NCBI GenBank assembly: GCA_944380065.1
Contig: CALWGM010000027.1
Coordinates: 1-44,464 of the forward strand
DNA length: 44,464 nt
Reading direction: 5' to 3'
Source of the DNA: an uncultured Lachnospiraceae bacterium
Lineage (GTDB): Bacteria; Bacillota; Clostridia; Lachnospirales; Lachnospiraceae
Shown here: positions 7,543 to 33,112 of the stretch, piece by piece
How the letters are laid out: each line of letters begins with the position of its first letter
Position numbering within the stretch: position 1 is the stretch's first letter
Program-made: the position numbers and the translations under genes
The notes under the pieces: model-generated
The model's database searches: none
Told to the model about the DNA's origin: nothing
Seen by the model: only the letters and a program-made list of their open reading frames with translations

Positions 7543-7580
7543 TCCCAAACTGTCATTTTTTTCACAAAAAATCTTTCGCC

Positions 7581-7632: not shown

Positions 7633-7651
7633 CTCCTTTTTCAGGGCTTCC

Positions 7652-8500
7652 TCAAAGCCCCAGGCCGTCGTTCATGCTCCCTCTCCGGTATCCCATCAGA
7701 TCCATCGTCACATAGGAAAATCCCAGCTTTTTCAGATATTCGGTCACTTCCTGCAGGATATCCGGTTCCAGCAGACGTCCCATTTCCTCCTTCAGCACTT
7801 CGATCCGCGCTAATTTACCGTGAATCCGCACCCGGAACTGATGAAACCCCAGATCCATCAGCTTCTGCTCCGCCTGATCCACCATATCCAGCTTCTCCCT
7901 GGTAATCTCTTCCCCGTACACAAACCGGGACGCCAGGCAGGCAAAGGAGGGCTTCTGCCAGGTATTCAGCCCATGGGCCCGGGACAGGATACGGATCTCT
8001 TCCTTGGTCAGCCCCACTTCCTGCAGCGGGCTGATCACTCCCAGTTCCCGCAGGGCGCGCACCCCCGGGCGGTAATCAGAAATATCGTTGATATTCGATC
8101 CGTCCAGCATCTGTTCATACCCTTCTGCCGCCGCCATCTCCATCATCCTGCAGAACAATACCTTTTTGCACAGATAGCAGCGATCCGGCGGGTTTTCCAG
8201 AAACCCTTCCACATCCTCCTCCCGGATGCGGCAGATTACCTGACGGATCCCGTAAACCTTACAGAAGGCCTCCGACTCCGAGGTTTCCCGCATGGGAACC
8301 CAGTCGCTCTGCACGGTCACCGCCAGTACATTGTCTCCCAGCGCCCTGCAGGCAGCATACAAAAGAAATGTCGAATCTACGCCGCCGGAAAAAGCAATCG
8401 CCGCTTTTTTCAGATCCTTCAGCTTCTGCAGCAGAAGCTCCCATTTTTCCACAATCTGCCCGTCCACAGGGTTCCCATCCACCAAAAGTTCTGTACTCAT
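7652..8500 (-). CDS. larE: ATP-dependent sacrificial sulfur transferase LarE
   Basis: The 282-residue protein belongs to the PP-loop ATP pyrophosphatases, with SGGVDST at about 38-44. It also has the LarE motif KPSFACLASRF, whose Cys188 corresponds to the sacrificial cysteine (Cys176 in Lactobacillus plantarum). LarE adds sulfur to the nicotinate-derived precursor of the nickel-pincer cofactor of lactate racemase and related LarA enzymes. GAGGTGAG precedes the ATG. It follows the aldolase-domain gene by 66 nt and probably shares its promoter. No larA, larB or larC is visible in the window, so the nickel-pincer role is inferred from the protein alone. Confidence 0.9.
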   Translation of the reverse strand: MSTELLVDGNPVDGQIVEKWELLLQKLKDLKKAAIAFSGGVDSTFLLYAACRALGDNVLAVTVQSDWVPMRETSESEAFCKVYGIRQVICRIREEDVEGFLENPPDRCYLCKKVLFCRMMEMAAAEGYEQMLDGSNINDISDYRPGVRALRELGVISPLQEVGLTKEEIRILSRAHGLNTWQKPSFACLASRFVYGEEITREKLDMVDQAEQKLMDLGFHQFRVRIHGKLARIEVLKEEMGRLLEPDILQEVTEYLKKLGFSYVTMDLMGYRRGSMNDGLGL

Positions 8501-8566
8501 ATCCTGCTCACCTCTTTCTTCCTCACTGCCGCCGCAGCCCTGAGCTGTCGCTGTCCACAGAAGATA

Positions 8567-9550
8567 TTATTCTCCCTCCAGCATTTCCTGGTAAAACCGT
8601 GTGTAATCCTGCCGCTGCCCTTTCTGGAAAGCAATCGCTGACTTCGGATGTGCATTCAGGATACCGGTCAGCATATAGGATACGTCAAAGCCCCACTCAT
8701 ACTTCTGCTTCATCTCCCCCATATGGGTTTCGATGAACTTCAGAACCGGCATAATGTCATATTTCGGGTTCTTTAAGAATCCCAGCAGCGACTCCAAGAA
8801 ACAGTTTCCCGCGCCTCTGCCCATCCCGCAGACCGTCCCGTCCAACAAGCTTGCCCCATAGCGCAGGGACTCAATCGTGTTGGCAAACGCCAGCTGCTGA
8901 TTGTTATGTCCGTGATAACCCACTGTAATGCCATATTTTTCCCCGATCTCCATGTAAAGCTCCGTCAGGGTCTTGACCTGTTCCGGATAGAACGCCCCGT
9001 AGCTGTCCACCAGATAGAGATAATCTACGCCGGACTGCGCCAGCATCTCGATTCCGGACTGAAGCTCCAGCTCGCCCACCTTGGAGACTGCCATAATGTT
9101 TACACTGACTTCATATCCCTTTTCCTTCGCGTCCGCGATCATCCGGATCGCCGTAGGGATCTGGTGAATATACGTCGCCACCCGCACCAGATCGATCACA
9201 CTCTCGCTCCTTGGCAGAATATCGGTCTGGTAATCACAGCGTCCCACATCCGCCATCACGGAAATCTTCATGGGGCTGTCATTCTCTCCCACGATCCTGC
9301 GGATGGACGCCTCGTCACAGAACTTCCATTCCCCGAATTCCTCCGTGGAAAAAAGCCGTTTGGACGCCTTATATCCAAATTCCATATAATCCACGCCGCT
9401 GGCAATATTTGCCTGATACAGCGCCTTCACAAATTCATCCGGAAACGCAAAATTGTTGACCAGCCCCCCATCCCGCAGGGTACAGTCTAAAATCCGGATA
9501 TCCGGGCAATAAGACATCAGGATCCTTCCGTTGGTGTTTTTCAGTGCCAT
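8567..9550 (-). CDS. Aldolase catalytic domain (HMGL-like) protein
   Basis: The 327-residue protein is a TIM-barrel member of the HMG-CoA lyase/4-hydroxy-2-oxovalerate aldolase superfamily. The metal and substrate motif ILDCTLRDGGLVNNF lies near residues 20-34, and YHGHNNQQLAFAN carries the metal-binding histidines. A glycine-rich GMGRGAGN follows. Such stand-alone proteins are annotated only as 'aldolase catalytic domain-containing', and their substrate is unknown. GGAGG sits 8 nt before the ATG. Downstream on the same strand is larE, which suggests a shared pathway, but nothing in the sequence fixes the reaction. Confidence 0.8.
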   Translation of the reverse strand: MALKNTNGRILMSYCPDIRILDCTLRDGGLVNNFAFPDEFVKALYQANIASGVDYMEFGYKASKRLFSTEEFGEWKFCDEASIRRIVGENDSPMKISVMADVGRCDYQTDILPRSESVIDLVRVATYIHQIPTAIRMIADAKEKGYEVSVNIMAVSKVGELELQSGIEMLAQSGVDYLYLVDSYGAFYPEQVKTLTELYMEIGEKYGITVGYHGHNNQQLAFANTIESLRYGASLLDGTVCGMGRGAGNCFLESLLGFLKNPKYDIMPVLKFIETHMGEMKQKYEWGFDVSYMLTGILNAHPKSAIAFQKGQRQDYTRFYQEMLEGE

Positions 9551-9590
9551 GATTTTGCCCTCCTTTTCTCATATTAACGTGCTAAAGTGA

Positions 9591-9619
9591 ATTATAGCAG
9601 GACTTTTCCCCTATGTCAA
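9591..9619 (-). promoter_or_regulatory. Consensus sigma-A promoter for the aldolase-larE operon
   Basis: On the minus strand a perfect TTGACA (9614-9619) and a perfect TATAAT (9591-9596) are separated by 17 nt. Transcription would start near 9584, about 34 nt before the ATG at 9550. Constitutive, fairly strong expression is expected unless a repressor intervenes. Confidence 0.85.
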
Positions 9620-9663
9620 TCACTGAATTTACAACAGGCTTTTCTATTGCCTGTCAACCAAAA

Positions 9664-9685
9664 GAGCGCCGGCATGCCGACGCTC
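9664..9685 (-). terminator. Probable terminator after the PPK2 gene
   Basis: GAGCGCCGGC and GCCGACGCTC form a 10-bp stem with a minimal loop. On the minus strand the stem is followed by TTTTGG. The U-tract is short, so termination may be partial. On the plus strand a run of six T follows about 12 nt later. Confidence 0.55.
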
Positions 9686-9761
9686 CTTCCCGGGGGTTTT
9701 TTGTTCTCCCGCCTGCAGCAACTCTCATATTTCCGGTTTTCTCTCTGCCGGCCGCAAAAAA

Positions 9762-11291
9762 TCAGTCCTGTTTCTTTGCCTTCCCGGCAGTTCCCAGACG
9801 CTCCTCCATGGCGTTCACCACAGACCGCAGCACCTTCACACGGGCATAATATTTATTATTTCCCTCTACGATGATCCAGGGGGCGTAGGTGGTGGAGGTA
9901 CGAACCAGCATCTCATCCACTGCTTTTTCATACTCATCCCACTTTTCCCGGTTCCGCCAGTCTTCATCGGTGATCTTCCACTGCTTATCCGGATTCTCCA
10001 TCCGCTCCTTGAAACGCCGCTCCTGCTCATCCTTGTCGATCTGCATCCAGAACTTCAGCACGATGGCTCCGTGCTCGGCGAACTGCTTCTCCATCTCGTT
10101 GATCTCCTGGTACGCCCGCTGCCATTCTTCCCTGGTACAGAAGCCCTCGATCCGTTCCACCATCACACGGCCATACCAGGTACGGTCAAAGATGGCAATG
10201 TGGCCGTCCTTGGGCACATGGTTCCAGAAACGCCACAGATAATGATGCACTTTCTCAATATCATTCGGGGAAGCGGTGGGATGCACAATATAGCCCCGGG
10301 GATCCATCCGGTCTGTCAGACGCTTGATCGCTCCGCCCTTACCGCCGGCATCCCAGCCCTCAAATCCCAGAATCATGGGGATCCTCCTGCGGTACAGCTC
10401 CCCGTGCAGCTCTTCGATCCTGCGCTGAAGCTCCTTCAGCTCCTTCTTGTATTCGTCGCGCTCCAGGGACAGGCTCAGATCCACCTTCTTCAGGCTGGAG
10501 GTCCGCAGCACCTCATCATCGTACTCAGAAGCCGGAACCGGCACATGGGAAACATTGGTATCCGAAGCGGATCCTTCCGCTTTTCTGCGGATCGCTGCCT
10601 TCAGCGCCTCGATCACCGCCGTATAAATCTTCACCGTCGCGAACTCGCGGTCCATGGCCTCCACGATCGTCCAGGGCGCATACGCCGTATCCGTATACTC
10701 CAGCATCTCATCGCTCATCTCTTTGTAAACATCAAAATTCTTGTTCCGCTTCAGATCGTCCTCCGATACCCGCCAGGAACTGGACCGGACTTCCATCAGC
10801 TTTTTAAAACGTTTTTTCTGTTCTTTCTTATCAATACACAGAAACAGCTTGATGATCACATTGCCGTCCGCCGCCAGCTGCCGCTCAAAAGAATTGATCT
10901 CATTGTAGTAGGTCACCAGGCGCTTTTCGGAAGTGATCCCGTCGAAACGGTCAATCATTACCTTGCGGTACCAGCTCCGGTCAAAAATCGCCATCTGGTC
11001 TTTGGCCGGCAGCTTCGTCCAGAACCGCCACAGAAACGGATGCATCATCTCCTCTGTGGATTCCGGGCCGATGGAATTTACATAAAAGCCGCGGGGATCC
11101 AGCGAATGGATCAGCCGTCCAATCTGGTAGCCCTTTCCCGCCGCCCCAAAACCTTCAAATACGATGATCACCGGGATCTTCTCCGCCTTGCAGGTTCTCT
11201 GAAGCCGCGCAAGCTCCGGTTCCAGAACCTCCATCCTCTTCTTATAATCCTCTTTTGACATATTTTTGGTCAAATCCAGCTGCTGTAACAT
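9762..11291 (-). CDS. pap: Polyphosphate:AMP phosphotransferase, tandem PPK2 domains
   Basis: The 509-residue protein contains two PPK2 domains, each with its own Walker A motif: GFGAAGKG at about 47-54 and GWDAGGKG at about 307-314. Each domain also repeats the pattern D(P)RG(F/Y) ... LWRFW ... IFDR(S/T)WY. This tandem architecture and length match PPK2 class II enzymes, which phosphorylate AMP to ADP with polyphosphate as donor. Single-domain PPK2 proteins are about half this size. GGGGGTAG precedes the ATG. The gene stands alone between its own promoter and terminator. In the family, often only one of the two domains is catalytically competent. That cannot be decided here. Confidence 0.9.
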   Translation of the reverse strand: MLQQLDLTKNMSKEDYKKRMEVLEPELARLQRTCKAEKIPVIIVFEGFGAAGKGYQIGRLIHSLDPRGFYVNSIGPESTEEMMHPFLWRFWTKLPAKDQMAIFDRSWYRKVMIDRFDGITSEKRLVTYYNEINSFERQLAADGNVIIKLFLCIDKKEQKKRFKKLMEVRSSSWRVSEDDLKRNKNFDVYKEMSDEMLEYTDTAYAPWTIVEAMDREFATVKIYTAVIEALKAAIRRKAEGSASDTNVSHVPVPASEYDDEVLRTSSLKKVDLSLSLERDEYKKELKELQRRIEELHGELYRRRIPMILGFEGWDAGGKGGAIKRLTDRMDPRGYIVHPTASPNDIEKVHHYLWRFWNHVPKDGHIAIFDRTWYGRVMVERIEGFCTREEWQRAYQEINEMEKQFAEHGAIVLKFWMQIDKDEQERRFKERMENPDKQWKITDEDWRNREKWDEYEKAVDEMLVRTSTTYAPWIIVEGNNKYYARVKVLRSVVNAMEERLGTAGKAKKQD

Positions 11292-11374
11292 AGTCTACCC
11301 CCTGATCTTATTCATTTTACCTGTCATTTGCCCGCACCCCGTGTACAGGGCAAAACGCCTTGTTGAATGTTCCT

Positions 11375-11383
11375 ATTATACCA
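11375..11383 (-). promoter_or_regulatory. Extended -10 promoter for the PPK2 gene
   Basis: On the minus strand TGG-TATAAT reads as an extended -10 element (TATAAT at 11375-11380). No good -35 hexamer is present at the proper distance. Transcription would start near 11368, about 77 nt before the ATG at 11291. Confidence 0.6.
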
Positions 11384-11550
11384 AGAATCAGCAGAAATTA
11401 CTACTATATATTCTGTTTTTTCAGACTTTTTATGCATTTTCCACATAGTCTCCGATAATTTCAGCCAGCAGCCGGAACGAAGAGATCTTCTTTTCCACAG
11501 GAAAAAAGCCCCGTCGCCGGAGCTTTTTCCTACATAGGGAGGTTGAGTTT
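11384..11550. other. Gene-poor stretch with terminator-like hairpin at 11499-11531
   Basis: This stretch between the PPK2 promoter and the small ORF has no credible gene. A hairpin at 11499-11531 has arms AGGAAAAAAGC and GCTTTTTCCT around a GC-rich inner stem. It is T-rich on both outer sides, so it looks like a bidirectional terminator or a leader hairpin of the small ORF at 11551. The 73-codon minus-strand frame at 11430-11651 starts with TTG and has no ribosome binding site. Confidence 0.5.
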
Positions 11551-11688
11551 ATGAAAAATCTAAAAATAGATGGGTTTTTGTTTTGTATGGTCTTATCATA
11601 CCGGAAAGTTGTGAGCAAATTGTGGCGGACTTCTAAAGAAATTCTTAGCAATTATAAAAAAACTGAAAATTTTCTAAACGGAATATAG
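11551..11688 (+). CDS. Small ORF, 45 residues, unknown function
   Basis: The frame encodes MKNLKIDGFLFCMVLSYRKV and a Lys/Asn-rich remainder ending NFLNGI. An excellent GGGAGG site lies 8 nt before the ATG, which is the main reason to list it. The product is basic, with one short hydrophobic stretch (about residues 8-16) that is too short for a clear membrane span. Base composition is AT-rich, unlike the neighbouring genes. It lies 69 nt before the polysaccharide deacetylase on the same strand and directly after a terminator-like hairpin. I do not recognise a family, and it may be a leader peptide or chance. Confidence 0.35.
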   Translation: MKNLKIDGFLFCMVLSYRKVVSKLWRTSKEILSNYKKTENFLNGI

Positions 11689-11757
11689 GAATCTCCCTGT
11701 TCTATCGGGCTCTGCCCATTCATACACTAAAAATAATCGCTTTTTGAAAGGCATCCT

Positions 11758-12537
11758 ATGCAAAAAAGCAAACTGCGCTTTCTCGCTTCTGTGACCGCCG
11801 TCCTGACGGGGATCTTTGCGGTGGCCGCCGTATTCCAGTCCCGTACAGAATTCATCTCTGTCAGCAGCACAGCCGCCGGTCGGGAGCTCCCCATCTACAG
11901 CGTCGGTACCGATGAGAAAAAAATAGCCATTTCCTTTGACGCCGCCTGGGGCAACGATGACACGGGGGAAATCCTCGATATTCTTGCAAAACACAACGTA
12001 CATGCGACCTTTTTTATGACCGGCGGCTGGGTGGAGTCCTACCCGGAGGATGTGAAAGCCATTTTTGAAGCGGGGCATGATCTGGGAAATCACAGCCAGA
12101 ACCACAAAAATATGAGTCAGCTTTCCGACGCGGAGATCAAAGAAGAGCTGATGACGGTACATGAACAGGTAAAAGAACTGACCGGATATGATATGTTTCT
12201 CTTCCGTCCGCCCTACGGGGACTATGACAACGAAGTAATCCTGGACGCCCGTGCCTGCGGCTACTACCCCATCCAGTGGTCTGTGGACAGCCTGGACTGG
12301 AAGGATTATGGCGCGGAGGAAATCATCAGCCGTGTCTGCAACCACGAAAACCTGACCGGCGGCGCCATCATCCTCTGCCACAACGGGGCAAAGTATACGG
12401 CAAAAGCGCTGGACGCCCTCCTGACCAGCCTAAAACAGCAGGGTTATGAGCTAATTCCCATTTCAGAACTGATCTATACGGAAAACTATCACATCGACGG
12501 CAACGGCATGCAGATTTCAGACAGCAAAAGCCAGTAA
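11758..12537 (+). CDS. Polysaccharide deacetylase, PdaB-like
   Basis: The 259-residue protein has a single N-terminal membrane or signal segment (about residues 7-26) and a NodB-homology domain (about 55-245). The motifs are SFDAAWGNDDT (divergent motif 1), the metal ligands in GNHSQNH, the RPPYG motif, WSVDSLDW and the final LCHNG. The SFDAAWG form of motif 1 is typical of the sporulation-linked PdaB group rather than of chitooligosaccharide deacetylases. It probably deacetylates peptidoglycan amino sugars outside the membrane. AAAGGC before the ATG is an acceptable ribosome binding site. The cotJ locus in the same window agrees with a sporulation role, but a vegetative role is possible. Confidence 0.85.
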   Translation: MQKSKLRFLASVTAVLTGIFAVAAVFQSRTEFISVSSTAAGRELPIYSVGTDEKKIAISFDAAWGNDDTGEILDILAKHNVHATFFMTGGWVESYPEDVKAIFEAGHDLGNHSQNHKNMSQLSDAEIKEELMTVHEQVKELTGYDMFLFRPPYGDYDNEVILDARACGYYPIQWSVDSLDWKDYGAEEIISRVCNHENLTGGAIILCHNGAKYTAKALDALLTSLKQQGYELIPISELIYTENYHIDGNGMQISDSKSQ

Positions 12538-20137: not shown

Positions 20138-22303
20138 TTAAATTTCATACCAGATAATTTCATTAGCGTCTAAGTGTACCGGGAAGCTGCTGCCGTCCCC
20201 GCGGTAGATCACCGTGTCCTGAGGCTCATAGGTATTATTCACCACACAGTATTTTCCGTTTTTCACATAAGCGTGTACATCCACATTGAAATTCCCGGAA
20301 AACCACCGATGCAGATTGTCCTCATCATGGCAGCTCCAGAGGATGCTGCGGTACAGGATCCTGGTATTCTCGAAGGAATAGGGCAGGCCGCTGATATAAA
20401 CTGCCCGGCCGCTGCCGAATTCATTGACCGCCATCTGCACCTCTTTTTCCCGCTGGATCAGGATCTGCGTGCCTTCCAGGGCGTACATGGACTTTTTGCC
20501 TTCCCCGAAATCCACATCCTTCGTACAGTCTGCCAGGATAAAATGATCCTCATGGTTCTCCCAGTTATATTTATCATAATTCAGGGTGAACCCGGTCTCC
20601 TTCTCCACGCCCAGCACATTGCCCAGCTGGATATACCTGCCCTGGTACTGATGTCCCGCAGGCTCGCCGACGCCGATCAGGCCGCCGCCCCGGTAAACAA
20701 ATCCCTTCACCGCTTCCGCGATCACCGGGTCTTCCCACTCATATCCGCCGGTGTGGGCGGTATCGCCGTCCCCCACATTGATGATCACATCGATATCATC
20801 CAGCACAGCCGGATTCTCGCGGATATCGTCAAAACTGATAAAACGCACATCAAACGGAGCGCCGCTCAGCGCCTCGATCACGCCTGCATAGCTGTAATTC
20901 TGCTTCTGGTACAGAGCGTGGTGCACCATGTGGCAGCCCCAGGAACGCATCCTCCCCCAGCTGTTTAATACCGCCACGGTCTTCACGCAGTAGGGCGTCG
21001 TCCCCTTCGCATTCTCATAGAGCAGCCGGAACTCATCGCAGACGCTCTCAATGTAATCCAGGAACTCCGGGAACTGGCAGGCCAGCTTCAGGTAGCCGCC
21101 GTATCCGATCCGGTCGATGGGTTTGCGTAAGATCGCCCGTCTGGCAGTCACCCAGTTGACCTTCGCCTCTTTGACCGGGTCGCCTCCCTCGTGGAAGGTA
21201 TCGGGGAAAAAGTAAGGCAGGAACCGTCCTTCTCTGTATTTCACGCCCTCCACATCACTGATCAGACGCAGTGTGGAGCCATTTCCCACGCTGCCCACCA
21301 GCGCGTCCAGGCCGATCTCTCTGAACTCATCCATAAAGGGCTCTGTCCCGATCCAGTGATCGCCTAAAAACATCATGGCCTCCTTGCCCTCTTCGTGGGT
21401 GATATCCACCAGTTCCTTCGCTAACTTTGCCACCTCCCGGCGCTGGAAAGCCTGGAAATCCTTGTATTCTTTGGACGGGATCCGGTACTGGTTGTTATGG
21501 TAGCCCTGGTCGATGATATACTCCGGCCGGAAGGGATATCCCACTTCCTTCTCGAACTGCTCCAGAATATAAGGGCTCACCGAAGCCGAATAGCCGTACC
21601 AGTCCACAAACTTCTCCCGCGCCAGCTCATCGAACACTAAGGTAAACTGATGGAAAAACGTGGTATAGCGGATCACGTTTACATGCGGATGGCTGCGGCA
21701 GAACTTCCGCAGACGCTTTAGAGAAAAGGCATGGGTCTTGGGCTGGCGCACATCAAAGGTAATCTGGTGCTCCACATCCTGCCAGTCATTCACCACTGCA
21801 TTGTACATATGTACAGGATCCCACATGATATACGCCAGGAAGCTGACCGTATAATCATGGAAGGGCTTTGCCGGACAGATCGTCACATCGCCGCTCTCCT
21901 CATCATAAGACCATTGCTCCACGGGAACCACCTCTCCTGTGGTCCGGTCGATCACTTCCCACCAGCGGCGGATATCATCCCGGCTGTTGACCGCCAGCAT
22001 CTCCGGATAGATCCCGGACATCAGATGGATGGACAGCGTCTCCTCTGACGCCGTATAAAACTTCGTCATAATATAGCACTGCTGGATCTCATCCGGGTTC
22101 GCTTTCGCCCACTCATTATCCTTTCGGGTGGTGTAATAGGTCGAATAAACCTTCGCCCCCACACCCTTTAATTCCTCCGGGAAATCCGTTCCGTCGCAGT
22201 CCCGGATGGCGTCCGCCCCCCAGCGCTTCATCAGCTCCAGCGTTTCCGGTACCACATCCATATCGGTAGGGATCGTCACACGCCCTGTCAGTTTTTTCTC
22301 CAT
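20138..22303 (-). CDS. lnpA: 1,3-beta-galactosyl-N-acetylhexosamine phosphorylase (GH112)
   Basis: The 721-residue protein is full length for GH112. It phosphorolyses galacto-N-biose and lacto-N-biose I to galactose 1-phosphate and the N-acetylhexosamine, in the cytoplasm. The catalytic acid corresponds to Asp315 in MMFLGDHWIGTEP. With an offset of two from the Bifidobacterium longum enzyme numbering as I remember it, Arg34, Pro163, Asn168, Arg212 and Ser338 align with substrate-contact residues, which suggests a dual GNB/LNB enzyme rather than the rhamnose type. That assignment is tentative. AAGGAGG precedes the ATG. It lies 63 nt after an HPr-like gene on the same strand. No sugar transporter or lnpB kinase is in the window. 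Confidence 0.92.
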   Translation of the reverse strand: MEKKLTGRVTIPTDMDVVPETLELMKRWGADAIRDCDGTDFPEELKGVGAKVYSTYYTTRKDNEWAKANPDEIQQCYIMTKFYTASEETLSIHLMSGIYPEMLAVNSRDDIRRWWEVIDRTTGEVVPVEQWSYDEESGDVTICPAKPFHDYTVSFLAYIMWDPVHMYNAVVNDWQDVEHQITFDVRQPKTHAFSLKRLRKFCRSHPHVNVIRYTTFFHQFTLVFDELAREKFVDWYGYSASVSPYILEQFEKEVGYPFRPEYIIDQGYHNNQYRIPSKEYKDFQAFQRREVAKLAKELVDITHEEGKEAMMFLGDHWIGTEPFMDEFREIGLDALVGSVGNGSTLRLISDVEGVKYREGRFLPYFFPDTFHEGGDPVKEAKVNWVTARRAILRKPIDRIGYGGYLKLACQFPEFLDYIESVCDEFRLLYENAKGTTPYCVKTVAVLNSWGRMRSWGCHMVHHALYQKQNYSYAGVIEALSGAPFDVRFISFDDIRENPAVLDDIDVIINVGDGDTAHTGGYEWEDPVIAEAVKGFVYRGGGLIGVGEPAGHQYQGRYIQLGNVLGVEKETGFTLNYDKYNWENHEDHFILADCTKDVDFGEGKKSMYALEGTQILIQREKEVQMAVNEFGSGRAVYISGLPYSFENTRILYRSILWSCHDEDNLHRWFSGNFNVDVHAYVKNGKYCVVNNTYEPQDTVIYRGDGSSFPVHLDANEIIWYEI

Positions 22304-24340: not shown

Positions 24341-27300
24341 ATGAATCAAATCAAAACACTCATTGACTTTTTACAGGAAAAGGCCGCATCCGACGGCAAC
24401 TGGGCTCTGTACCGCTTTGTGGATTTCGATGACAGCCGGGAGGAGTGGACGCTGGAGGACCACACCATCGGCGAACTGTACCGCAAAGCCCTGGAAATCG
24501 CCTATATGCTCCGCAAAAAGGGTCTGCGCCCGGGAGACCGCGCCGTGATCTTTTCCATGCAGGATTTCGGGACGGTTTACGCCGTATACGGCTGTATGAT
24601 GGCCGGCGTCGTATTTACCATCATCCCCCCTCCGCTGGATGAAGACAAGGTGGAGCGTTTCATCTCTGTCTTAAAGTCCTGCCATCCCAGAGCCCTGATC
24701 TCCAACTATGCCCTGGAACAGGGATCCGGCGTCAGTATCACCGGCCGCCTTCTGAAAGAGGCTTTCCGGGATACGATCCGTTTGAAACGTATCTATACCG
24801 ACAGGCTGCTGCCCTACCGCCGCACCGATGTGATCGCGCCGGCCAGAGCAAACCAGCTTGTCTATCTGCAATATACCTCCGGTTCCACCAGCGCCCCCAA
24901 GGGCGTCCGCGTGACCTGGAAGAACCTGATGAAAAACTTGGAGCAGTGCTTTCACTGCTATACATTCAAGGACGTCACGCTGGCCACCTGGGTTCCGTTT
25001 TTCCATAATCTGGGTCTGGTGGTGACCATCTGTATGCCGCTGCTGGCCACCGCTTCCCAGGGATATTTCCTGCAGACCCTCCGGTTCCTGGAGAATCCGA
25101 AGCTGTGGATCCGGCTGATCTCTGACTTTAAGATCACCATGACCGTGGGACCCGGCTCCGCCTACGACGCCTGCACCCGGATCTTCTCTGAGGAAGAGGC
25201 CGCGCAGTATTCCCTGTCGCAGGTCACTCATTTTATGAACGGTTCTGAGTTCATCAGCGCCAGAACTGTGGAGCGCTTTATCCGGATGTTCCACTGCCGG
25301 CCGGACGCCATGGCTCCCGGCTACGGCGTATCGGAGAATGTCTGCCTGGCCACCTTTGCCAGCCAGGACTACCGCACCTTAAAATTAGATTATGAAGCAT
25401 ATCAGAAAAACCGTGCGGTCATCGTAAAGGACGCCGAAAACGCCAAGGAGATCGTCAGCGTCGGCGCTCCGGTCAGGGATCTGACTGTGGTGATCGGCAA
25501 TCCGAAGACAAAAAAGGTTTACCCGGATCTCAGGATCGGCGAGATTTTCCTCTCCGGAGACAGCGTGGCGGACGGATACTGGGGCGGCCACCCGGAAAAC
25601 CGGAATTTTTATGTAAAATTAGAAGGCTACGACTGCAATTTCTATAAAACCGGCGACCTGGGATTCCTTTACCAGGGACACCTCTATATCACGGGCCGCA
25701 TCAAGGAAATGCTGATCGTAAACGGCCACAATGTGTACCCCGGCGATCTGCAGGTAACCATCAGCCGCCATGTTCCGGCGCTGGCCGGAAACGCGTATGG
25801 ATTCTTCGCCTGCACCACGGACACCAGAGAGCAGATTGTTGCCATCATCGAGGCGAAGCCCCACGAGGATTTTGTCCGCCGGACACAGCAGGTCAACAAA
25901 GCTGTTTCCGACCGCTTTGCCTTCTCCTTTTATGATGTGGTATTCGTCCCCCTGAATACAATTCCGCGGACGGATAACCGCAAGCTGCAGATGTTAAAGG
26001 CCCGCGCCCTGTATGAGGCAGGGAAGTTAGAGGTGCTTTACAGCAGCCGCGCCGACCAGATGGCTCATCCCGGCAAAAACCTCCTCTGTGAGACAACGGA
26101 TGATGCCCAGGGGCATCCGCAGGAGTGGACAGAGGACATTATTGACCGGGCAGATGAGATCTTCCTGCAGGTGCGCGCGGCTTTCCAGCGGGTGCTGAAG
26201 ATCGAACATTTTAACCTGAACGACTCGTTCCTGGCCCTCGGCGGGGATTCCCTGATGGGCTTTGAACTGATCAATAACATTGAAAAGAAATTCCATATCA
26301 AACTGGATCTGCGGGAACTGCTGCGTGACGCTTCCGTTATCGGCATCACAGAATACATTCATTCTGTCCTGTCCGGAAACAGGGGCACCGCCAAATCAGT
26401 CAACCTCTCCAACGAATGCCGCCTGGACGAGAGTATCCAGCTGACCGGTGAATACCGGAAAACGCCGGAACAGTGCCGGAAGATTTTCCTTACCGGGGCC
26501 ACCGGATTTCTGGGCGCCCAGCTGATCCGCTGCCTGCTGAAATACTATCCCCACGACGGCCTGGAGATCCACTGCCTGGTGCGGGCAGATTCCCTGCAGG
26601 CAGGCCGCGCCAGGATCAGGGAAAACCTGAAGCATTACCGCTGCTGGCAGGAGGATATGGCGCAGTACCTGTTCCCTGTCATCGGCGACCTGTCCTCCCC
26701 GAAGTTCGGGCTGTCCGATGAAAAATGGCAGGAGCTGTCCGAACGGATGGAGGTCGTTTACCACAACGGCGCAGTCCTGAATTTTGTATATCCTTACGAG
26801 TTCCTGCAGGCGACAAATGTGGGCGGTACTACGGAGACCCTGCGGCTGGCCTGCAGCGGACAGCCCAAATACTACCATTATGTTTCTTCCTACAGCGTGT
26901 ATGACACCCCTGCCAACCGCGGGAAGCACGTGATGGAAGACGATCCCCTGACCGGATGGCACGGCTTCACCCTGTCTTACTCCGAGACCAAATGGGTATC
27001 GGAGAAATTGGTGGGCATTGCCCGCCAGCGGGGCCTGAAGGCGGCCGTTTACCGGCCGGGCGACATCACCGGCGCCGCCAACGGCATCTGGGAAATGGAC
27101 GACATGGTAAGCCGGATCCTGGTCAGCACGATCCAGATGAAGGCGGTTCCCCATGCGAATTACACTTTCCACATGACCCCGGTGGACTTTGTCGCCGAAG
27201 CGCTGATTTTTATTTCCAGACAGGAGGAGGCCTTCGGCCACGCTTTCAACCTGGTGAACCCGAGACCCCAGACCTTAAAGCAGGTGATCGCCGCCATCAA

Positions 27301-27586
27301 AAACTGCGGTTACCCGGTACACCATATCCCGTTCCCGCTCTGGAAACGGCGGATCCGCAAATCCAGCGCCTCCGAAAATGCCATGGTGCTGCTGGAATGC
27401 CTCTTTGAGGTGGGTAATGACCGGAATCCCAATGTACTGCGTCATTTCACCGGCAAAGACCCGGTTTACGACATACGCAATACACGGCGGCTTTTAGAAT
27501 CCTCCGGCATCCGCTGCCCGGCTGTGGATCAGAAAATGATCGCCGCCTACCTGGAATACTTCAGGAAAAAAGGATACATTCACTAA
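24341..27586 (+). CDS. Fatty acyl-AMP ligase / acyl carrier / thioester reductase fusion
   Basis: The 1,081-residue protein has the order A-T-R, as in carboxylic acid reductases. Residues 1-590 resemble fatty acyl-AMP ligases: P-loop YTSGSTSAPKG (178-188), WVPFFHNLGL, GPGSAYDAC, YGVSEN, YKTGDLGF and GRIKEMLIVNGHNVYP. The carrier domain (about 600-680) has GGDSL with phosphopantetheine Ser637. The reductase domain (about 710-1,075) is an extended SDR with GATGFLG (719-725) and the catalytic pair Tyr880/Lys884 in YSETK. It should activate a fatty acid with ATP, load it on its own carrier and release it by NAD(P)H as aldehyde or alcohol. The ATG at 24341 (AAGGA upstream) is preferred. An in-frame GTG at 24302 would lie almost at the predicted transcript start. 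There is no condensation domain. Confidence 0.88.
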   Translation: MNQIKTLIDFLQEKAASDGNWALYRFVDFDDSREEWTLEDHTIGELYRKALEIAYMLRKKGLRPGDRAVIFSMQDFGTVYAVYGCMMAGVVFTIIPPPLDEDKVERFISVLKSCHPRALISNYALEQGSGVSITGRLLKEAFRDTIRLKRIYTDRLLPYRRTDVIAPARANQLVYLQYTSGSTSAPKGVRVTWKNLMKNLEQCFHCYTFKDVTLATWVPFFHNLGLVVTICMPLLATASQGYFLQTLRFLENPKLWIRLISDFKITMTVGPGSAYDACTRIFSEEEAAQYSLSQVTHFMNGSEFISARTVERFIRMFHCRPDAMAPGYGVSENVCLATFASQDYRTLKLDYEAYQKNRAVIVKDAENAKEIVSVGAPVRDLTVVIGNPKTKKVYPDLRIGEIFLSGDSVADGYWGGHPENRNFYVKLEGYDCNFYKTGDLGFLYQGHLYITGRIKEMLIVNGHNVYPGDLQVTISRHVPALAGNAYGFFACTTDTREQIVAIIEAKPHEDFVRRTQQVNKAVSDRFAFSFYDVVFVPLNTIPRTDNRKLQMLKARALYEAGKLEVLYSSRADQMAHPGKNLLCETTDDAQGHPQEWTEDIIDRADEIFLQVRAAFQRVLKIEHFNLNDSFLALGGDSLMGFELINNIEKKFHIKLDLRELLRDASVIGITEYIHSVLSGNRGTAKSVNLSNECRLDESIQLTGEYRKTPEQCRKIFLTGATGFLGAQLIRCLLKYYPHDGLEIHCLVRADSLQAGRARIRENLKHYRCWQEDMAQYLFPVIGDLSSPKFGLSDEKWQELSERMEVVYHNGAVLNFVYPYEFLQATNVGGTTETLRLACSGQPKYYHYVSSYSVYDTPANRGKHVMEDDPLTGWHGFTLSYSETKWVSEKLVGIARQRGLKAAVYRPGDITGAANGIWEMDDMVSRILVSTIQMKAVPHANYTFHMTPVDFVAEALIFISRQEEAFGHAFNLVNPRPQTLKQVIAAIKNCGYPVHHIPFPLWKRRIRKSSASENAMVLLECLFEVGNDRNPNVLRHFTGKDPVYDIRNTRRLLESSGIRCPAVDQKMIAAYLEYFRKKGYIH

Positions 27587-27601
27587 AATCAGGAGTACAT
27601 T

Positions 27602-28537
27602 ATGAAAATCGGAATTCCCCGTGCGCTGCTTTACTACCGTTACGGGGTTCTCTGGGAGACTTTCTTCCGGGAGCTCGGTATGGAAACGGTGTTAAGCCCG
27701 CACACCAATAAAAATCTTTTAGACGCGGGAAACTACTATGCGATTGATGAAAACTGCCTGTCCAGCAAGCTGTTCCTGGGGCACGTCTCTGCCCTGAAGG
27801 GCAAATGCGACTGTGTTTTCGTTCCCCGCGTCGCCAATTATGGAAAAGACGGCGTTCTCTGCACGCGGTTCGAGGCCATGTATGACATGTGCGTCAATAC
27901 CTTCCGCTCACAGGAGATCCGTTTTATCACCTGCAATGTTGATATTCAGCAGAGAAAACCGGAGGCGGGGGCTTATATCCGCCTGGGCATGGAGCTGGGC
28001 GCCTCCCGCCCGGCAGCGAAGGCAGCCTGGCAGAAAGCGAAGGCAGCCTGGCACGCAGACCAGGAACAGAAGCTCCGGGCGCAGGAAGCGGCCCTGGCCA
28101 CGGACAGGATCCGGGTTCTGGTGGTCGGCCACGCCTACAACCTCTACGATGAATACATCGGAAAGCCGATCCTGCGCGGGATCGAGCGGCTGGATGCCCT
28201 GCCGGTGTGCTCCGATGCCATCGACCTGGCCCAGGCACAGAAGGATTCCCTGCATATCTGCGGCAATGTGCCCTGGATCATGAGCCGTGAACTTTTGGGA
28301 GCCATTGATAAATACCACGACCAGATCGACGGCATCATCCTGCTGACTGCATTCCCCTGCGGCCCGGATTCCATGGTAAATGAGATGATCATCCGCCGCG
28401 TAAAGGACCGGCCGATCCTGAACCTGCTCTTAGACAGCCAGGACGGAAGCGCCGGCGTGGACACCCGCCTGGAAAGCTTTATCGATATTATCCGTTTCCG
28501 AAAGGAGGCGACTGCAAATGCCGGAAAAAGAGTATAA
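27602..28537 (+). CDS. 2-hydroxyacyl-CoA dehydratase-like protein, DUF2229 type
   Basis: The 311-residue protein starts MKIGIPRALLYYRYGVLWETFF and has GMETVLSP, ENCLSSKLFLGH and FVPRV, the pattern of DUF2229 / acyl-CoA dehydratase activase-related proteins. The second half (VLVVGHAYNLYDEYIG, LTAFPCGPDS, LDSQDGSAGVDTRLESF) resembles the C-terminal half of HgdB-type subunits. Cys52, Cys87 and Cys253 are placed where a [4Fe-4S] cluster could be bound, which is an inference. A charged Ala/Lys linker (about 137-165) contains a duplicated segment. AGGAG precedes the ATG, 15 nt after the ligase/reductase stop, and the 3' end overlaps the next gene by 20 nt. The reaction is unknown. Confidence 0.8.
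   Translation: MKIGIPRALLYYRYGVLWETFFRELGMETVLSPHTNKNLLDAGNYYAIDENCLSSKLFLGHVSALKGKCDCVFVPRVANYGKDGVLCTRFEAMYDMCVNTFRSQEIRFITCNVDIQQRKPEAGAYIRLGMELGASRPAAKAAWQKAKAAWHADQEQKLRAQEAALATDRIRVLVVGHAYNLYDEYIGKPILRGIERLDALPVCSDAIDLAQAQKDSLHICGNVPWIMSRELLGAIDKYHDQIDGIILLTAFPCGPDSMVNEMIIRRVKDRPILNLLLDSQDGSAGVDTRLESFIDIIRFRKEATANAGKRV
28016..28053 (+). repeat. 17-bp direct repeat, 21-bp period, in the linker of the DUF2229 gene
   Basis: GCGAAGGCAGCCTGGCA occurs at 28016-28032 and again at 28037-28053. It encodes two in-frame copies of an AKAAW-type heptapeptide in the helical linker between the two halves of the protein. It looks like a small recent duplication and does not disturb the frame. Confidence 0.85.
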
Positions 28538-29681
28538 GCTGTGCTATCCGCAGCTGGGCAACTATGACATTGCCATCCAATATTTTGTGACACACGGGCT
28601 TCACCTGAAATATATGAGCCCGCCCGCCATGACCAAACGAACCATTGAGTTAGGCGCCAAATACAGCCCGGATTTTGTCTGCGCACCCTTTAAGTGCCAC
28701 ATGGGAAATTACCTGGAGGCGCTGGAGCAGGGCGCCAATGTACTGATCCAGACCGGCGGCACCTGCCGCCTGGGATATTACGGCGAACTGCATGAACAGA
28801 TTTTAAAGGATATGGGGTATGATTTTGAGATTTTTAATCTGACCCTGTTCCGCTACCGGAACATTTTCGGGATGATCAGAGGCATGAAAAAATACGCCCC
28901 CCGGGCTACGCTGCTGCAGATAGCGGCTGCGGTTCCGGCTACCTTCCGAATGGTGCTGGCCATTGACAGGGTGGAGGACTACTACCGCCAGAATATGGGA
29001 TTCGAGACCAAAAAAGGTTCTTTCGACGCGGTATACAACCACTTCCTGGCGGGACTTAAAAGGGCGGAGGGTCTGCGGGAAGTCAGCCGCATTTTTAAAC
29101 AGACCATGGCCAACCTGAAGGCGATCCCCCTGGAAAAGCCAGATCGCCCCATACGGATCGGCGTGATCGGCGAATATTTCACCATTATGGATCCGTTTTC
29201 CAACCATGAGGTGGAAAAAAAGTTAGCTGAGATGGGCGCGGAGATCCACCGCTGGATGAATCTCTCCAACAGTTTACTGATCTGCCCGGAGAAATCCACC
29301 CTCAAAAAGCTCCGCCATTATATCCACTATGACCTGCACAAATTTCCGTCTTCCATCTGGGTAGACATTCAGAAAAAGCAGAGCTCCAGATATGTCACCT
29401 ACGACATGGGAAGTTCTGCCGTTTCCACGGTCACCCTGGCGGAATACTATGCCAAAAAAGGATTTGACGGCCTGGTGCACATCAAATCTTTCGGCTGCAC
29501 GCCTGAAATGGACTGCATTCCGGTACTGCACAACATCAGCGCGGATTACAGGATCCCCATCCTGTACCTGAGCTATGACACCCAGACCAGTGATACCGGT
29601 ATCGAGACGCGGCTGGAGGCTTTCTACGACATGCTCTCCATGAAACGCACTAAGACCCAGAAGCAGGAAGAAAAGAGGTAA
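28518..29681 (+). CDS. 2-hydroxyacyl-CoA dehydratase-like subunit
   Basis: The 387-residue protein matches the HgdB-like portion of CoA-activase family proteins. Visible features are PDFVCAPFKCHMGNYLEAL (Cys55, Cys60), QTGGTCRLGYYGELH (Cys83), a helical middle, IRIGVIGEYFTIMDPFSN, SFGCTPEMDC (Cys327, Cys333) and the terminal SYDTQTSDTGIETRLEAFYDML. The end is clearly related to that of the preceding gene (DTRLESFIDI), so the two are probably paralogous subunits of one complex. The conserved cysteines suggest a [4Fe-4S] cluster. AAAGGAGG sits 9 nt before the ATG inside the 3' end of the previous gene. In the family, electrons are received from an ATP-driven activase, which is the next gene. 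Confidence 0.82.
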   Translation: MPEKEYKLCYPQLGNYDIAIQYFVTHGLHLKYMSPPAMTKRTIELGAKYSPDFVCAPFKCHMGNYLEALEQGANVLIQTGGTCRLGYYGELHEQILKDMGYDFEIFNLTLFRYRNIFGMIRGMKKYAPRATLLQIAAAVPATFRMVLAIDRVEDYYRQNMGFETKKGSFDAVYNHFLAGLKRAEGLREVSRIFKQTMANLKAIPLEKPDRPIRIGVIGEYFTIMDPFSNHEVEKKLAEMGAEIHRWMNLSNSLLICPEKSTLKKLRHYIHYDLHKFPSSIWVDIQKKQSSRYVTYDMGSSAVSTVTLAEYYAKKGFDGLVHIKSFGCTPEMDCIPVLHNISADYRIPILYLSYDTQTSDTGIETRLEAFYDMLSMKRTKTQKQEEKR

Positions 29682-29686
29682 CCAAC

Positions 29687-30646
29687 TTGAAAAAAGCATA
29701 TATGGGAATCGATATCGGTTCCATCTCAACCAAAGGCGTCATTATCGACGAAGAGAAGAATATCCTGGCCAGCGTGTATCTCTGGACAGAGGGGAATCCC
29801 ATGGGGGCAGCCAAAAAAGTCATTGCCTCCCTGGGTGAACAGCTGAACCAGGAGGAATATCAGGTGATGGCGGCCGGGACCACCGGCAGCGCCCGCAAAT
29901 TGGTCGGAGCCATGTGCAACGCCAGCATCGTAAAAAATGAGATCACCGCCCATGCGGTAGGCACCACCACCCTGCATCCGGACGTCCGCACGATCCTGGA
30001 GATCGGCGGCCAGGATTCCAAGATCATCTGTGTGGAAAACGGCGTTGCCGTGGATTATGCCATGAATACCCTCTGCGCCGCCGGGACAGGTTCCTTCCTT
30101 TCCAGCCAGGCAAGACGTCTGGGAGTGGATGTGGAGGAATTCGGCAAAATCGCCTTAAGCAGCAGCAATCCCACGCCGATCGCCGCCCGCTGTACCGTAT
30201 TTGCGGAATCGGATCTGGTGCACAAGATCCAGATGGGTCATAAAAAAGAAGATATCATTGCCGGCCTCTGCCACGCCGTGGCCAACAATTATCTGAATAA
30301 CATCGGAAAAGGCAAAAAGATTGCCGCCCCGATCGTTTTCCAGGGCGGCGTCAGCAAGAATGAGGGCGTGGTGAAGGCGTTTGCCGATTCTCTGGGCGAA
30401 GAGATCATTGTGGACGAAAACGGACATCTCATGGGCTGCTACGGCGCCGCCATCCTGGCGCAGGGCTGCGGCGTGGAGCGTCCCTTCTCCTTTGACATTG
30501 CAGACATGGACTTCCTCACCCGCGAGGTGGTCTGCCCCAACTGCCCCAACCACTGCGAAATCATCTGCGTTTACCGGGAAGGGGAGCTGATCGACTCCTG
30601 GGGAAACCGCTGCGAGCGGGGCGAGGTACGCCAGGGGGACGTCTGA
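29687..30646 (+). CDS. Acyl-CoA dehydratase activase (BcrAD/BadFG/HgdC ATPase)
   Basis: The 319-residue protein is an actin-fold ATPase of the HgdC type: MGIDIGSISTKG (phosphate 1), EIGGQDSK (phosphate 2) and FQGGVSKNEG (adenosine). Cys130 (NTLCAAGTGSFL) and Cys169 (AARCTVFAESD) correspond to the pair that holds one [4Fe-4S] cluster between two monomers. It should inject low-potential electrons into the preceding dehydratase-like pair with ATP hydrolysis. A C-terminal extension of about 40 residues carries CPNCPNHCEIIC and NRCERGE, more cysteines than simple HgdC proteins. The start is a TTG, 8 nt after AGAGGT and 5 nt after the previous stop. The internal ATG at 29702 is too far from the site. 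Confidence 0.9.
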   Translation: MKKAYMGIDIGSISTKGVIIDEEKNILASVYLWTEGNPMGAAKKVIASLGEQLNQEEYQVMAAGTTGSARKLVGAMCNASIVKNEITAHAVGTTTLHPDVRTILEIGGQDSKIICVENGVAVDYAMNTLCAAGTGSFLSSQARRLGVDVEEFGKIALSSSNPTPIAARCTVFAESDLVHKIQMGHKKEDIIAGLCHAVANNYLNNIGKGKKIAAPIVFQGGVSKNEGVVKAFADSLGEEIIVDENGHLMGCYGAAILAQGCGVERPFSFDIADMDFLTREVVCPNCPNHCEIICVYREGELIDSWGNRCERGEVRQGDV

Positions 30647-30731: not shown

Positions 30732-30775
30732 AAAAAAAGGATCCGCGCAGTCTTTTCGGCTGTACGGATCCCTTT
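30732..30775. terminator. Bidirectional terminator between activase and DUF6465 genes
   Basis: GGATCCGCGCAG (30739-30750) pairs with CTGTACGGATCC (30760-30771) with one mismatch and a wobble. Seven A precede it and CTTTT follows. On the minus strand the run of seven T makes a strong terminator for the DUF6465 gene, and on the plus strand it ends the FAAL operon. Confidence 0.88.
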
Positions 30776-30821
30776 TCATATTCTTTTGCCTGATGCCGCT
30801 GATCACGCGTTCTGTGCGTGA

Positions 30822-31328
30822 TTAAAACTTCACACAGCCGGTGTACTGCTCATTGATCACATAGTAAGCAGCGTTATCCTCCGGCTTGATATACAGAGTG
30901 ATGGACTTCACAGATACGGTCTCCTCTGTAGCCGCGAACTGTGCCAGGGCTCTCTCGGTCAGCTCTTCCTCGCTGATCTCCTGGCCCATGTACTGAAGAA
31001 CCACGTTTTTCGTGGGCTTTCTGTTGTATTTGCGCTTGGGAGCAGCCTCAGCAGCTTCCTTTACCGCCTTCTTTGTCCTGGCAGCAGTCTTCTTTGCCGC
31101 AGTTTTCGTCTTCTCAGCCACATCCTTCGCCTGCTCTACAACCTTTTCTGCTGTATCTTTTGCAACTGCTGCAGCTGCCTCTGTGCTTTTCTTTGCAGCC
31201 TCTTTATTTGCTGCCTTCGCCCTGGTGTTTGCCTTTTTCGCTGCCGCTACCTTTTCTTCTGTCGTAACAGTCTCTTCGCTGATAATCGTAGAATCTACAG
31301 CAGCGCTGGTCGTTTTCTTTGTTGCCAT
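30822..31328 (-). CDS. Lys/Ala-rich protein with C-terminal DUF6465-like domain
   Basis: The 168-residue protein has two parts. Residues about 25-105 are a low-complexity Lys/Ala/Thr/Glu helix reminiscent of histone H1 tails (repeats of KKTAA and EKV). Residues about 108-168 form a compact domain (VVLQYMGQEISEEELTERA, VKSITLYIKPEDNAAYYVIN, then GCVKF) that I associate with DUF6465 of Lachnospiraceae. The function is unknown. The basic helix could bind nucleic acid or lie along the envelope. The ATG at 31328 follows GGAGG at 8 nt. A longer frame to 31349 includes that site. It has its own strong promoter and terminator and is divergent from the CoA-transferase genes. Confidence 0.75.
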   Translation of the reverse strand: MATKKTTSAAVDSTIISEETVTTEEKVAAAKKANTRAKAANKEAAKKSTEAAAAVAKDTAEKVVEQAKDVAEKTKTAAKKTAARTKKAVKEAAEAAPKRKYNRKPTKNVVLQYMGQEISEEELTERALAQFAATEETVSVKSITLYIKPEDNAAYYVINEQYTGCVKF

Positions 31329-31436
31329 GATAAGTTCCTCCTTTTCCAATCAAAATACTTATCTTGAACGTTCCGATTTTTCACTGCGGGTATCCTCAAT
31401 TTCCCTGTCATCATCCCGGCGCCTTCTCTTCCATGA

Positions 31437-31530: not shown

Positions 31531-31694
31531 CTTTTATTATTTTGATTTTCAAACTATTTTGCTAATTTCCAGTCAATTATTACATAACCCACAGGTAACC
31601 GTCTTCGGGACATGGTATATTTTTACGGATTCCCATATTTTTACCTGTTTTTTTTAACTTTTTGCACAAATTGGCTGGATTTTATCATTCAAGA

Positions 31695-31703
31695 TGCTAT
31701 AAT
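31695..31703 (+). promoter_or_regulatory. Extended -10 promoter of the CoA-transferase operon
   Basis: TGC-TATAAT (TATAAT at 31698-31703) gives an extended -10 element with a weak -35. Transcription would start near 31710, with a leader of about 65 nt before the ATG at 31776. Confidence 0.65.
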
Positions 31704-31775
31704 AGACATAGTTGTGGGAAATCATCTTTTTCCATATCTGCATATTATTACATCATTCATTTAGGAGGGAAAGAA

Positions 31776-32453
31776 ATGGCTAAGACAAAAGTTATTTCTG
31801 CAAAAGAAGCTGCCTCTCTGATCAAAGACGGCGATACCGTATTAATCGGCGGCTTCATGACAAACGGAACAGCAAAATCGATCTGTAATGAAGTAACTGC
31901 AAAAGACCTGACTGTTGTATGTAACGACGGTGGTTTTGAGAATGAAGGAACAGGCAGACTGCTTCACAATGGCTGCATCAAGAGACTGATCGCTACCCAT
32001 GTCGGCCTGAACAAAGAAGTTGCTGCAAAATTCAACGCAGGCGAGCTTGACTTAAAGCTTCAGCCTCAGGGTACTTTAGCAGAGCAGATCCGTGCAGGCG
32101 GAGCTGGCCTGGGCGGTTTCCTTACCCCCACCGGTATCGGTACGATCGTAGCTGACAGCAATTCACCGACAACCTTAGAGGGCAAACAGGTCATTGAGCT
32201 GGACGGCCAGGAATACCTTCTTGAGAAAGCGATCCGCGGCAACGTTGCGATCATCCAGGGTTATATCGCTGACGAATCCGGAAACGTTCGTTACAAAGGA
32301 TCTACACGTAACTTTAACGTTCCCATGGCATCCGCAGCGGACACTGTTATCGTTGAGGTTGAGAAGATCGTTCCCGCCGGAGAGATCGGCCCGGATTACG
32401 TTGAGACCCCTCATATCTTTGTTGATTACTTAGTATTAAAGGAGGAAGCATAA
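31776..32453 (+). CDS. CoA-transferase subunit A (3-oxoacid/acetate CoA-transferase family)
   Basis: The 225-residue subunit starts [32 protein letters not shown] and carries the family I CoA-transferase alpha pattern, including [16 protein letters not shown] and [15 protein letters not shown]. With subunit B it moves CoA between short-chain acids such as acetate, butyrate or acetoacetate. The exact acids cannot be read from the sequence. GGAGGG lies 6 nt before the ATG. The frame upstream to 31662 is not translated because it precedes the transcript start. Codon use is strongly biased towards GTA, GCT, CGT and AAA forms compared with neighbours, as in highly expressed genes. Confidence 0.9.
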
Positions 32454-32455
32454 TA

Positions 32456-33112
32456 ATGGAAAGAAGTGAAATCAAACCGTTTATCGCCAAACGTGTTGCA
32501 AAAGAGATTCATGACGGCGACGTTGTAAATTTAGGTATCGGTCTTCCCACTATGGTTCCCGATTACGTTGATCCCAGCATCAAGATCACTTTACAGTCTG
32601 AGAACGGATTCATCGGCCTGGCAGCTGCAGATCCCGATTCTCCGGACGCTCCTTATATTGTAAACGCAGGCGGCCAGCCGGCAGGTATTGAGAAAGACGG
32701 TATGTTCTTTGATTCCTGCACTTCTTTCGGCATCATCCGCGGCGGACATGTTGACGCTACTGTACTCGGCTCCCTGCAGGTAGACGAGAAGGGCGACATT
32801 GCAAACTGGATCATCCCGGGCAAGATGGTTCCCGGTATGGGCGGCGCTATGGATCTGGTTGTAGGCGCAAAGAAAGTAATCGTTGCGATGGAGCACACCC
32901 AGAAGGGCAGCCCGAAGATCTTAAAAGAGTGCACACTTCCCCTGACCGCAAAGGGACAGGTAAACCTGATCGTAACCGAGATGGGCGTAATGGAGGTAAC
33001 TCCCGAAGGCATCGTACTGACCGAGTACAACCCTGAGTTCACCGTAGAGGAGATCCAGGCTGCTACAGAAGCAAAACTGATCATCTCCCCGGATCTGAAA
33101 CCGATGATCTGA
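32456..33112 (+). CDS. CoA-transferase subunit B
   Basis: The 218-residue subunit contains the catalytic glutamate Glu49 in QSENGFIG, the family I beta-subunit signature, preceded by [18 protein letters not shown]. The NAGGQPAG and [18 protein letters not shown] segments are typical of the AtoA/ScoB/CtfB group. AAAGGAGG lies about 10 nt before the ATG, which is 2 nt after the subunit A stop. The active enzyme is expected to be an A2B2 heterotetramer in the cytoplasm. It shares the biased codon use of subunit A. In this kind of organism it would act in butyrate or acetoacetate metabolism. Confidence 0.92.

Follow-up and report, generated by a model that had tools for sequence, protein, structure and literature searches.

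A conserved four-gene operon in relatives of Eubacterium ramulus joins a fatty acyl-AMP ligase–thioester reductase to a split PlsA-like reductase and suggests a reductive lipid pathway

We analysed a 44,464-nt stretch of DNA from an uncultured Lachnospiraceae bacterium (assembly GCA_944380065.1, contig CALWGM010000027.1, forward strand), referred to as the window, to whose full length all window coordinates refer. It contains an operon in which a protein consisting of a fatty acyl-AMP ligase (FAAL), an acyl carrier protein (ACP) domain and a thioester reductase (TR) is followed by a trio of genes for two reductase-like subunits and an activating ATPase. This four-gene unit holds up on checking, is conserved and brings known parts together in a new way. 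We propose that it specifies a reductase that uses ATP to act on a fatty-acyl carbonyl, along with a dedicated enzyme for activating and reducing fatty acids; the system would make a reduced lipid and be a sister system of PlsA, the anaerobic plasmalogen synthase, and Ger, the glycerol ester reductase. We put the probability of this reading at roughly 0.45, somewhat short of even odds. The operon, conserved among gut bacteria related to E. ramulus, suggests a lipid pathway not previously described. The features of the operon are as follows.

24341–27586, forward strand: gene 1, FAAL-ACP-TR protein, ATG start, 1,081 amino acids
24353–26023, forward strand: FAAL domain of gene 1 (NCBIfam PRK05850, residues 18–574 of 1,094)
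26168–26359, forward strand: acyl carrier domain of gene 1 (PF00550, residues 623–686)
26480–27580, forward strand: TR domain of gene 1 (TIGR01746, residues 727–1093)
27602–28537, forward strand: gene 2, DUF2229 protein, Red1-like reductase subunit, 311 amino acids
28518–29681, forward strand: gene 3, HGD-like protein, Red2-like reductase subunit, 387 amino acids
29687–30646, forward strand: gene 4, BadF/HgdC-type ATPase activase, Act2-like, TTG start, 319 amino acids
about 30734–30776, forward strand: terminator-like hairpin 3′ of gene 4 (folding against shuffles)

The open reading frames and the spacing of 15, −20 and 5 nt across genes 1-2, 2-3 and 3-4 confirm the preliminary description of this DNA, which had placed four tightly packed genes here. 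An alternative GTG start at 24302 would extend gene 1 to 1,094 amino acids; alignments of orthologues start near the ATG. The terminator claimed for the end of the operon is supported by a stable hairpin (−21.8 kcal/mol, z −5.4, with none of 200 shuffles equally stable), but this was not listed by a simple terminator scan and its T-run is short.

Conservation was surveyed at close range in 116 genomes, comprising the window's own genome and its relatives, with a threshold of E ≤ 1e-120 for gene 1. Gene 1 was found in 21 of them: all 20 genomes of the genus and one of another genus (G040). It lies directly 5′ of genes 2-3-4 on one contig in G040 and in 19 of the 20 genus genomes, the window's own included, while in G013 the unit is interrupted by a contig end. 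The four genes are thus neighbours in related genomes, a check that the preliminary description had asked for. In one genome (G014; L046, 2853–5048), a single 732-amino-acid frame carries genes 3 and 4 as a fusion. In a scan of named genomes, 28 of the 80 loci retained out of 418 belonged to the operon clade (L065–L091 and L095); 20 of these are contigs already counted in the genus and G040 survey and eight are new (L084, L085, L087–L091 and L095). Named carriers are E. ramulus ATCC 29099 (L074), E. ramulus strain 21 (L076) and E. oxidoreducens DSM 3217 (L088). The trio is preceded by gene 1 in 26 of the 28 loci; L087 shows only the end of gene 1, and L078 is truncated at a contig end. Within 9 kb, many contigs being short, no neighbour family besides the four genes occurs in more than 6 of the 28 loci, so the conserved unit consists of these four. 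A larger conserved cluster around the operon was rejected, as the neighbours beyond the four genes vary by locus. Sequence identity of gene 1 is correlated with that of genes 2 and 3 (r 0.90, 66 pairs), as co-inheritance predicts. Beyond the group gene 1 is rare. Searches of the order and the phylum, in which at most two candidates were scored per genome, found it in 1 of 391 other order genomes at E ≤ 1e-100 (G258, 45% identity) and 1 of 397 other phylum genomes at E ≤ 1e-90 (G799, 37%).

The domain assignment of gene 1 as a FAAL-ACP-reductase, made in the preliminary description, agrees with the profile matches and the nearest solved chains. Pfam matches were AMP-binding (174 bits), PP-binding (46.5 bits) and NAD_binding_4 (202 bits), and the NCBIfam thioester reductase model scored 307 bits against a cut-off of 213. 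NCBIfam fatty-acid–AMP ligase models also matched (PRK05850, 294 bits), below the models' own cut-offs. By sequence, the solved chains nearest to the FAAL domain are FAALs such as 3kxw, FadD32 and FadD23, and the nearest to the TR domain is MxaA (4u7w). We aligned the window protein with 11 intact orthologues that are 59–85% identical to it. The carrier-domain Ser of the GGDSL motif, the TR nucleotide motif T-G-x-T-G-F-L-G and the YxxxK residues are invariant in all 12 rows; each has a recognised role in domains of this kind. Gene 1 combines all three domains with the phosphopantetheine serine and the Tyr and Lys of a TR.

Both the FAAL and TR domains are also near solved domains labelled polyketide synthase. 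Together with the match to MxaA and the narrow spread of gene 1, which suits a specialised metabolite, this speaks for a different product: a small specialised lipid such as a fatty aldehyde, alkenal or alcohol signal, with genes 2-4 acting on the acyl thioester held by the ACP of gene 1, by reduction or 2-hydroxyacyl dehydration, before release by the TR. We consider this unlikely, since conservation around the operon extends to no additional gene family and the trio by itself occurs very widely.

Gene 2 matches DUF2229 in Pfam (149 bits), with no HGD-D match at E 0.001. Gene 3 matches HGD-D with 27.4 bits, just below the cut-off of 28.4, over the C-terminal 68 positions only, so neither subunit passes the threshold of the dehydratase family. 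The fold of dehydratases and benzoyl-CoA reductases is nevertheless present in both, at 7–18% identity in structural alignments to dehydratase, benzoyl-CoA reductase and double-cubane protein (DCCP) structures. Searches of PDB sequences with gene 2 and its profile returned nothing useful. Of the two HGD-like proteins initially proposed, gene 3 stands, whereas gene 2 is a DUF2229 protein by sequence and shows the dehydratase fold only in its predicted structure. Gene 4 was rightly called an HgdC/BadF activase: it matches BcrAD_BadFG in Pfam (166 bits) and the NCBIfam activase model with 203 bits against a cut-off of 125, and aligns to the dehydratase activator 4eht (E 1.9e-41). Both cluster cysteines of 4eht are matched and are invariant in 23 alignment rows, which, with the ATPase domain, places gene 4 among the BadF/HgdC activases, where these two residues hold the bridging cluster. 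The invariant cysteines of the trio are C52, C87 and C253 in gene 2, C55, C83 and C327 in gene 3, and C130 and C169 plus the C-terminal C283, C286, C290 and C309 in gene 4; the last four lie outside the region that aligns with solved dehydratase activators.

Fused proteins of some 1,420 amino acids are common in genomes of the family. Besides the operon copy, DUF2229 is found in a long frame in 19 of the 20 genus genomes (18 frames of at least 1,400 amino acids and one of 793 in G004); no fused PlsA/Ger-like protein was found in the window's own genome (95.7% complete). In the five genus proteins checked (G001, G003 twice, G008 and G019) the order of parts is BadF-BadF-DUF2229-HGD. This fits the parts of PlsA, which PMC12838417 (Fig. 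8 legend) names Act1, Act2, Red1 and Red2. Architecture is the sole ground for calling the fused proteins PlsA-like, and our comparisons use unnamed sequences. Profiles of genes 4, 2 and 3 span the second activase, the DUF2229 and the HGD segments of the fused protein at nearly full length, and each of the trio's 12 invariant cysteines (3 + 3 + 2 + 4) has an equivalent in six fused proteins and two two-gene pairs. As judged from these profiles and cysteines, the trio is a full set of predicted Act2, Red1 and Red2 parts without Act1. The alignment with segments of PlsA, proposed earlier as a check, gave this part-for-part match.

We built a tree of reductase subunits from the trio, five fused proteins, two split pairs and the canonical dehydratase pair of the window's own genome. 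Gene 3 with Red2 was monophyletic (0.97), as was gene 2 with Red1 (0.87), and gene 2 (0.83), gene 3 (0.97), Red1 (1.0) and Red2 (1.0) each formed a clade of their own. The trio subunits fall outside the Red1 and Red2 clades and are sister to each; because each part forms a clade apart, we regard the trio as a sister family of PlsA/Ger.

The trio could instead be a split PlsA/Ger-type plasmalogen or alkyl-ether synthase acting on diacyl phospholipids, with gene 1 only supplying or recycling fatty aldehyde. The part-for-part homology and the shared cysteines favour this, and a two-gene plsA/plsR form is described for C. perfringens in a passage of PMC12838417 (PlsA/PlsR are also treated in a review, PMC9702350). 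We think it quite improbable, given the missing Act1, the position of the trio outside Red1 and Red2 and the presence of the fused PlsA/Ger-like protein in 19 of 20 genus genomes (architecture checked in five proteins from three to four genomes). The same coexistence argues against plasmalogen synthesis by a different gene arrangement, which the preliminary description had put forward, as do the placement of the trio in a sister clade of its own and its wide occurrence without gene 1. The operon is most likely a paralogous reductive lipid system and not the plasmalogen synthase proper.

A canonical HGD-type dehydratase pair with its activase is present elsewhere in the window's own genome (G000, contig C153, L241), where the second subunit and the activase share one open frame. 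This pair, the sole canonical one used, lies outside both the gene 2–Red1 and gene 3–Red2 groups. Grouping of the trio with an amino-acid fermentation dehydratase, which the preliminary description had named as an outcome that would count against it, was not observed with this pair. We rejected the trio as the organism's canonical dehydratase: that role has its own genes on C153, phylogenetically separate.

The trio is a widespread unit. At E ≤ 1e-35, a profile built on gene 3 has hits in 335 of the 398 phylum genomes searched, fused proteins being part of this count. From the strongest matches listed we hand-picked a non-random sample of 60 phylum loci, about one per family. All 60 contain genes 2 and 3; in 58 of them gene 3 immediately follows gene 2, and in 46 gene 4 comes immediately next. 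These numbers led us to reject the idea that the trio is a fortuitous or local assembly. A midpoint-rooted tree of genes 2 and 3 from 151 loci (148 distinct) separates type I (59 loci) from type II (92 loci, support 1.0). A single clade inside type II, with support 1.0, unites the 28 operon sequences, which come from the window and 27 loci, L078 being too short for inclusion. Of the 60 sampled phylum loci, 55 are type I.

Many of these sampled loci (L175–L234), nearly all type I, lie in a sporulation/germination block with a sigma factor, SpoVAC/AD/AE and GerA on the upstream side and LysA, M50 peptidase and ScpA downstream. Cluster counts among the 60 were 17 for GerA (14 directly before gene 2), 18 for SpoVAD, 21 for the sigma factor and 13 for LysA; cluster names rest on one representative each, run against Pfam. 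A literature search gave no report of sporulation genes beside such dehydratase-like trios. A general role of the trio unrelated to fatty acids, for example as a spore-related or cofactor reductase, with gene 1 merely co-transcribed, draws on the GerA, SpoVAD, SigF-like and LysA genes beside type I trios in a good part of the sample and on scpB-scpA beside the trio in L084, L088, L089 and L090, but it is very unlikely given that the operon trio is type II (support 1.0) and that gene 1 has held its place directly 5′ in two or more genera despite turnover among the other neighbours.

In the reading we prefer, gene 1 would adenylate a free fatty acid with ATP to give acyl-AMP, load the acyl group onto its own carrier domain and reduce the carrier-bound acyl with NAD(P)H to an aldehyde or alcohol, as its domains and conserved residues indicate. 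The gene 4 ATPase, with two cysteines for a bridging [4Fe-4S] site, would pass low-potential electrons to the products of genes 2 and 3. These are predicted to form an Fe-S heterodimer, given their fold, homology and invariant residues. By analogy with PlsA/Ger, the heterodimer may reduce an acyl ester, thioester or aldehyde carbonyl via a ketyl radical, and the product might be an ether, vinyl ether or related reduced lipid.

Four observations point to a fatty-acyl substrate. The coupling to gene 1 is conserved, and the trio is homologous to PlsA/Ger. DegV/FakB proteins bind fatty acids, and DegV adjoins type II trios in one clade of five (L135 and L139–L142, support 1.0), where it is upstream and co-oriented in four; in three (L139, L140 and L142) DegV is preceded by members of a single gene family, and the one run against Pfam is MarR-like. 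A further, convergent DegV case is L143, the same contig as L029. Finally, PlsA-like genes lie near a lone trio in two loci: a plsA/plsR-like pair in L114 (16603–21034) and a 1,427-amino-acid fused gene in L129 (4156–8436).

Several results weigh against this interpretation. Among the 80 named loci retained out of 418, 52 are other trios and none of these has gene 1 beside it; 38 of the 52 hold at least 3.3 kb upstream. Within the operon clade, L089 lacks gene 1 within 9 kb; in this rumen Eubacterium locus (6880–12281), scpA-scpB stands directly before gene 2, at the expected place of gene 1. Conversely, the homologue in G258 has no trio on its 11.8-kb contig, nor does that in G799, which adjoins other ligases, within 19.5 kb. 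Thus, neither gene 1 nor the trio needs the other everywhere. The reading frame of gene 1 is broken in the draft assemblies of 4 of the 20 genus genomes (G002, G004, G015 and G017). An activase tree did not recover a grouping of gene 4 with Act2, the DegV association is limited to one clade, and to our knowledge the established PlsA route needs no FAAL. Regarding the broken frames, gene 1 is in two to three pieces in L052, L058, L059 and L060, reflecting either assembly error or decay. A distant FAAL-ACP-TR (37%) in L237 (560–17133) lies among two further AMP-binding ligases, an SDR, a carboxyltransferase and a sigma-54 activator, with no trio.

The occurrence of gene 1 before the trio in the E. 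ramulus group offers a testable substrate class for a widespread, uncharacterised family of low-potential Fe-S reductases, and cultivated carriers, E. ramulus and E. oxidoreducens, would allow a function to be assigned to this family in gut bacteria. According to section 18 of a 2026 paper (PMC13274423), screened Bacillota genomes in general hold extra PlsA homologues without an activation domain, whose role is unclear. The trio may be these additional homologues, the "missing" activase being encoded by the next gene. A more far-reaching proposal, which we hold to be speculative and on balance doubtful, is a third bacterial route to reduced glycerolipids in human gut anaerobes: the aldehyde or alcohol from FAAL-ACP-TR, or acyl-ACP, would feed a split PlsA-like radical reductase that yields an ether, vinyl-ether or acetal lipid, and the widespread Clostridial trios would add a third family of reductases to PlsA/Ger and the CoA dehydratases. 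A role for an aldehyde has been proposed for aerobic myxobacterial ElbD. Searches of the open-access literature, judged for most hits from the listing, did not turn up a description of the four-gene unit, and none of the papers listed combined a FAAL and a thioester reductase with a 2-hydroxyacyl-CoA dehydratase; the listings showed no paper on E. ramulus lipids, and the COG names of genes 2 and 3 yielded only unrelated work.

Elsewhere in the window, a Lys/Ala-rich protein is encoded after the operon (30822–31349, reverse strand), and the like-placed gene in L066 and L074 is DUF6465. Other neighbours are a 1,3-beta-galactosyl-N-acetylhexosamine phosphorylase (20138–22303, reverse strand) and an acetate/3-oxoacid CoA-transferase pair (31662–33112, forward strand).

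The domains of gene 1 resemble those of FAALs and carrier-bound TRs (FadD32, 3kxw and MxaA), but here the three make up a whole protein with no other domain, and its neighbour is a radical-type Fe-S reductase. ElbD of Myxococcus xanthus, described as an ether-lipid enzyme in PMC9131029, likewise unites an acyl-activating ligase, a carrier and reductase-like parts in a single polypeptide. ElbD, however, has its FAR1-like part at the N-terminus and also an AGPAT-like part, whereas the reductase of gene 1 is C-terminal and no acyltransferase domain was found in it with Pfam. The trio shares the fold of both subunits and the activase type with 2-hydroxyacyl-CoA dehydratases, benzoyl-CoA reductases and DCCP, the last compared by fold only, but differs in its 7–18% structural-alignment identity, sub-threshold HGD-D match and separation from its own genome's canonical pair. 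The stand-alone DUF2229/HGD-like/BadF trios of Clostridia have the same three genes in the same order, and the operon trio is nested among those of type II; they lack the FAAL-ACP-TR next door that the operon has. With PlsA, the PlsA-PlsR pair and Ger, the trio shares the BadF activase with its C-terminal four-cysteine motif, the DUF2229 and HGD parts and all invariant cysteines. Unlike these single proteins or pairs, with which it usually coexists in the form of a fused PlsA/Ger-like protein, the operon distributes permuted parts over three genes in the order Red1-Red2-Act2, dispenses with Act1 and joins them to a FAAL-ACP-TR.

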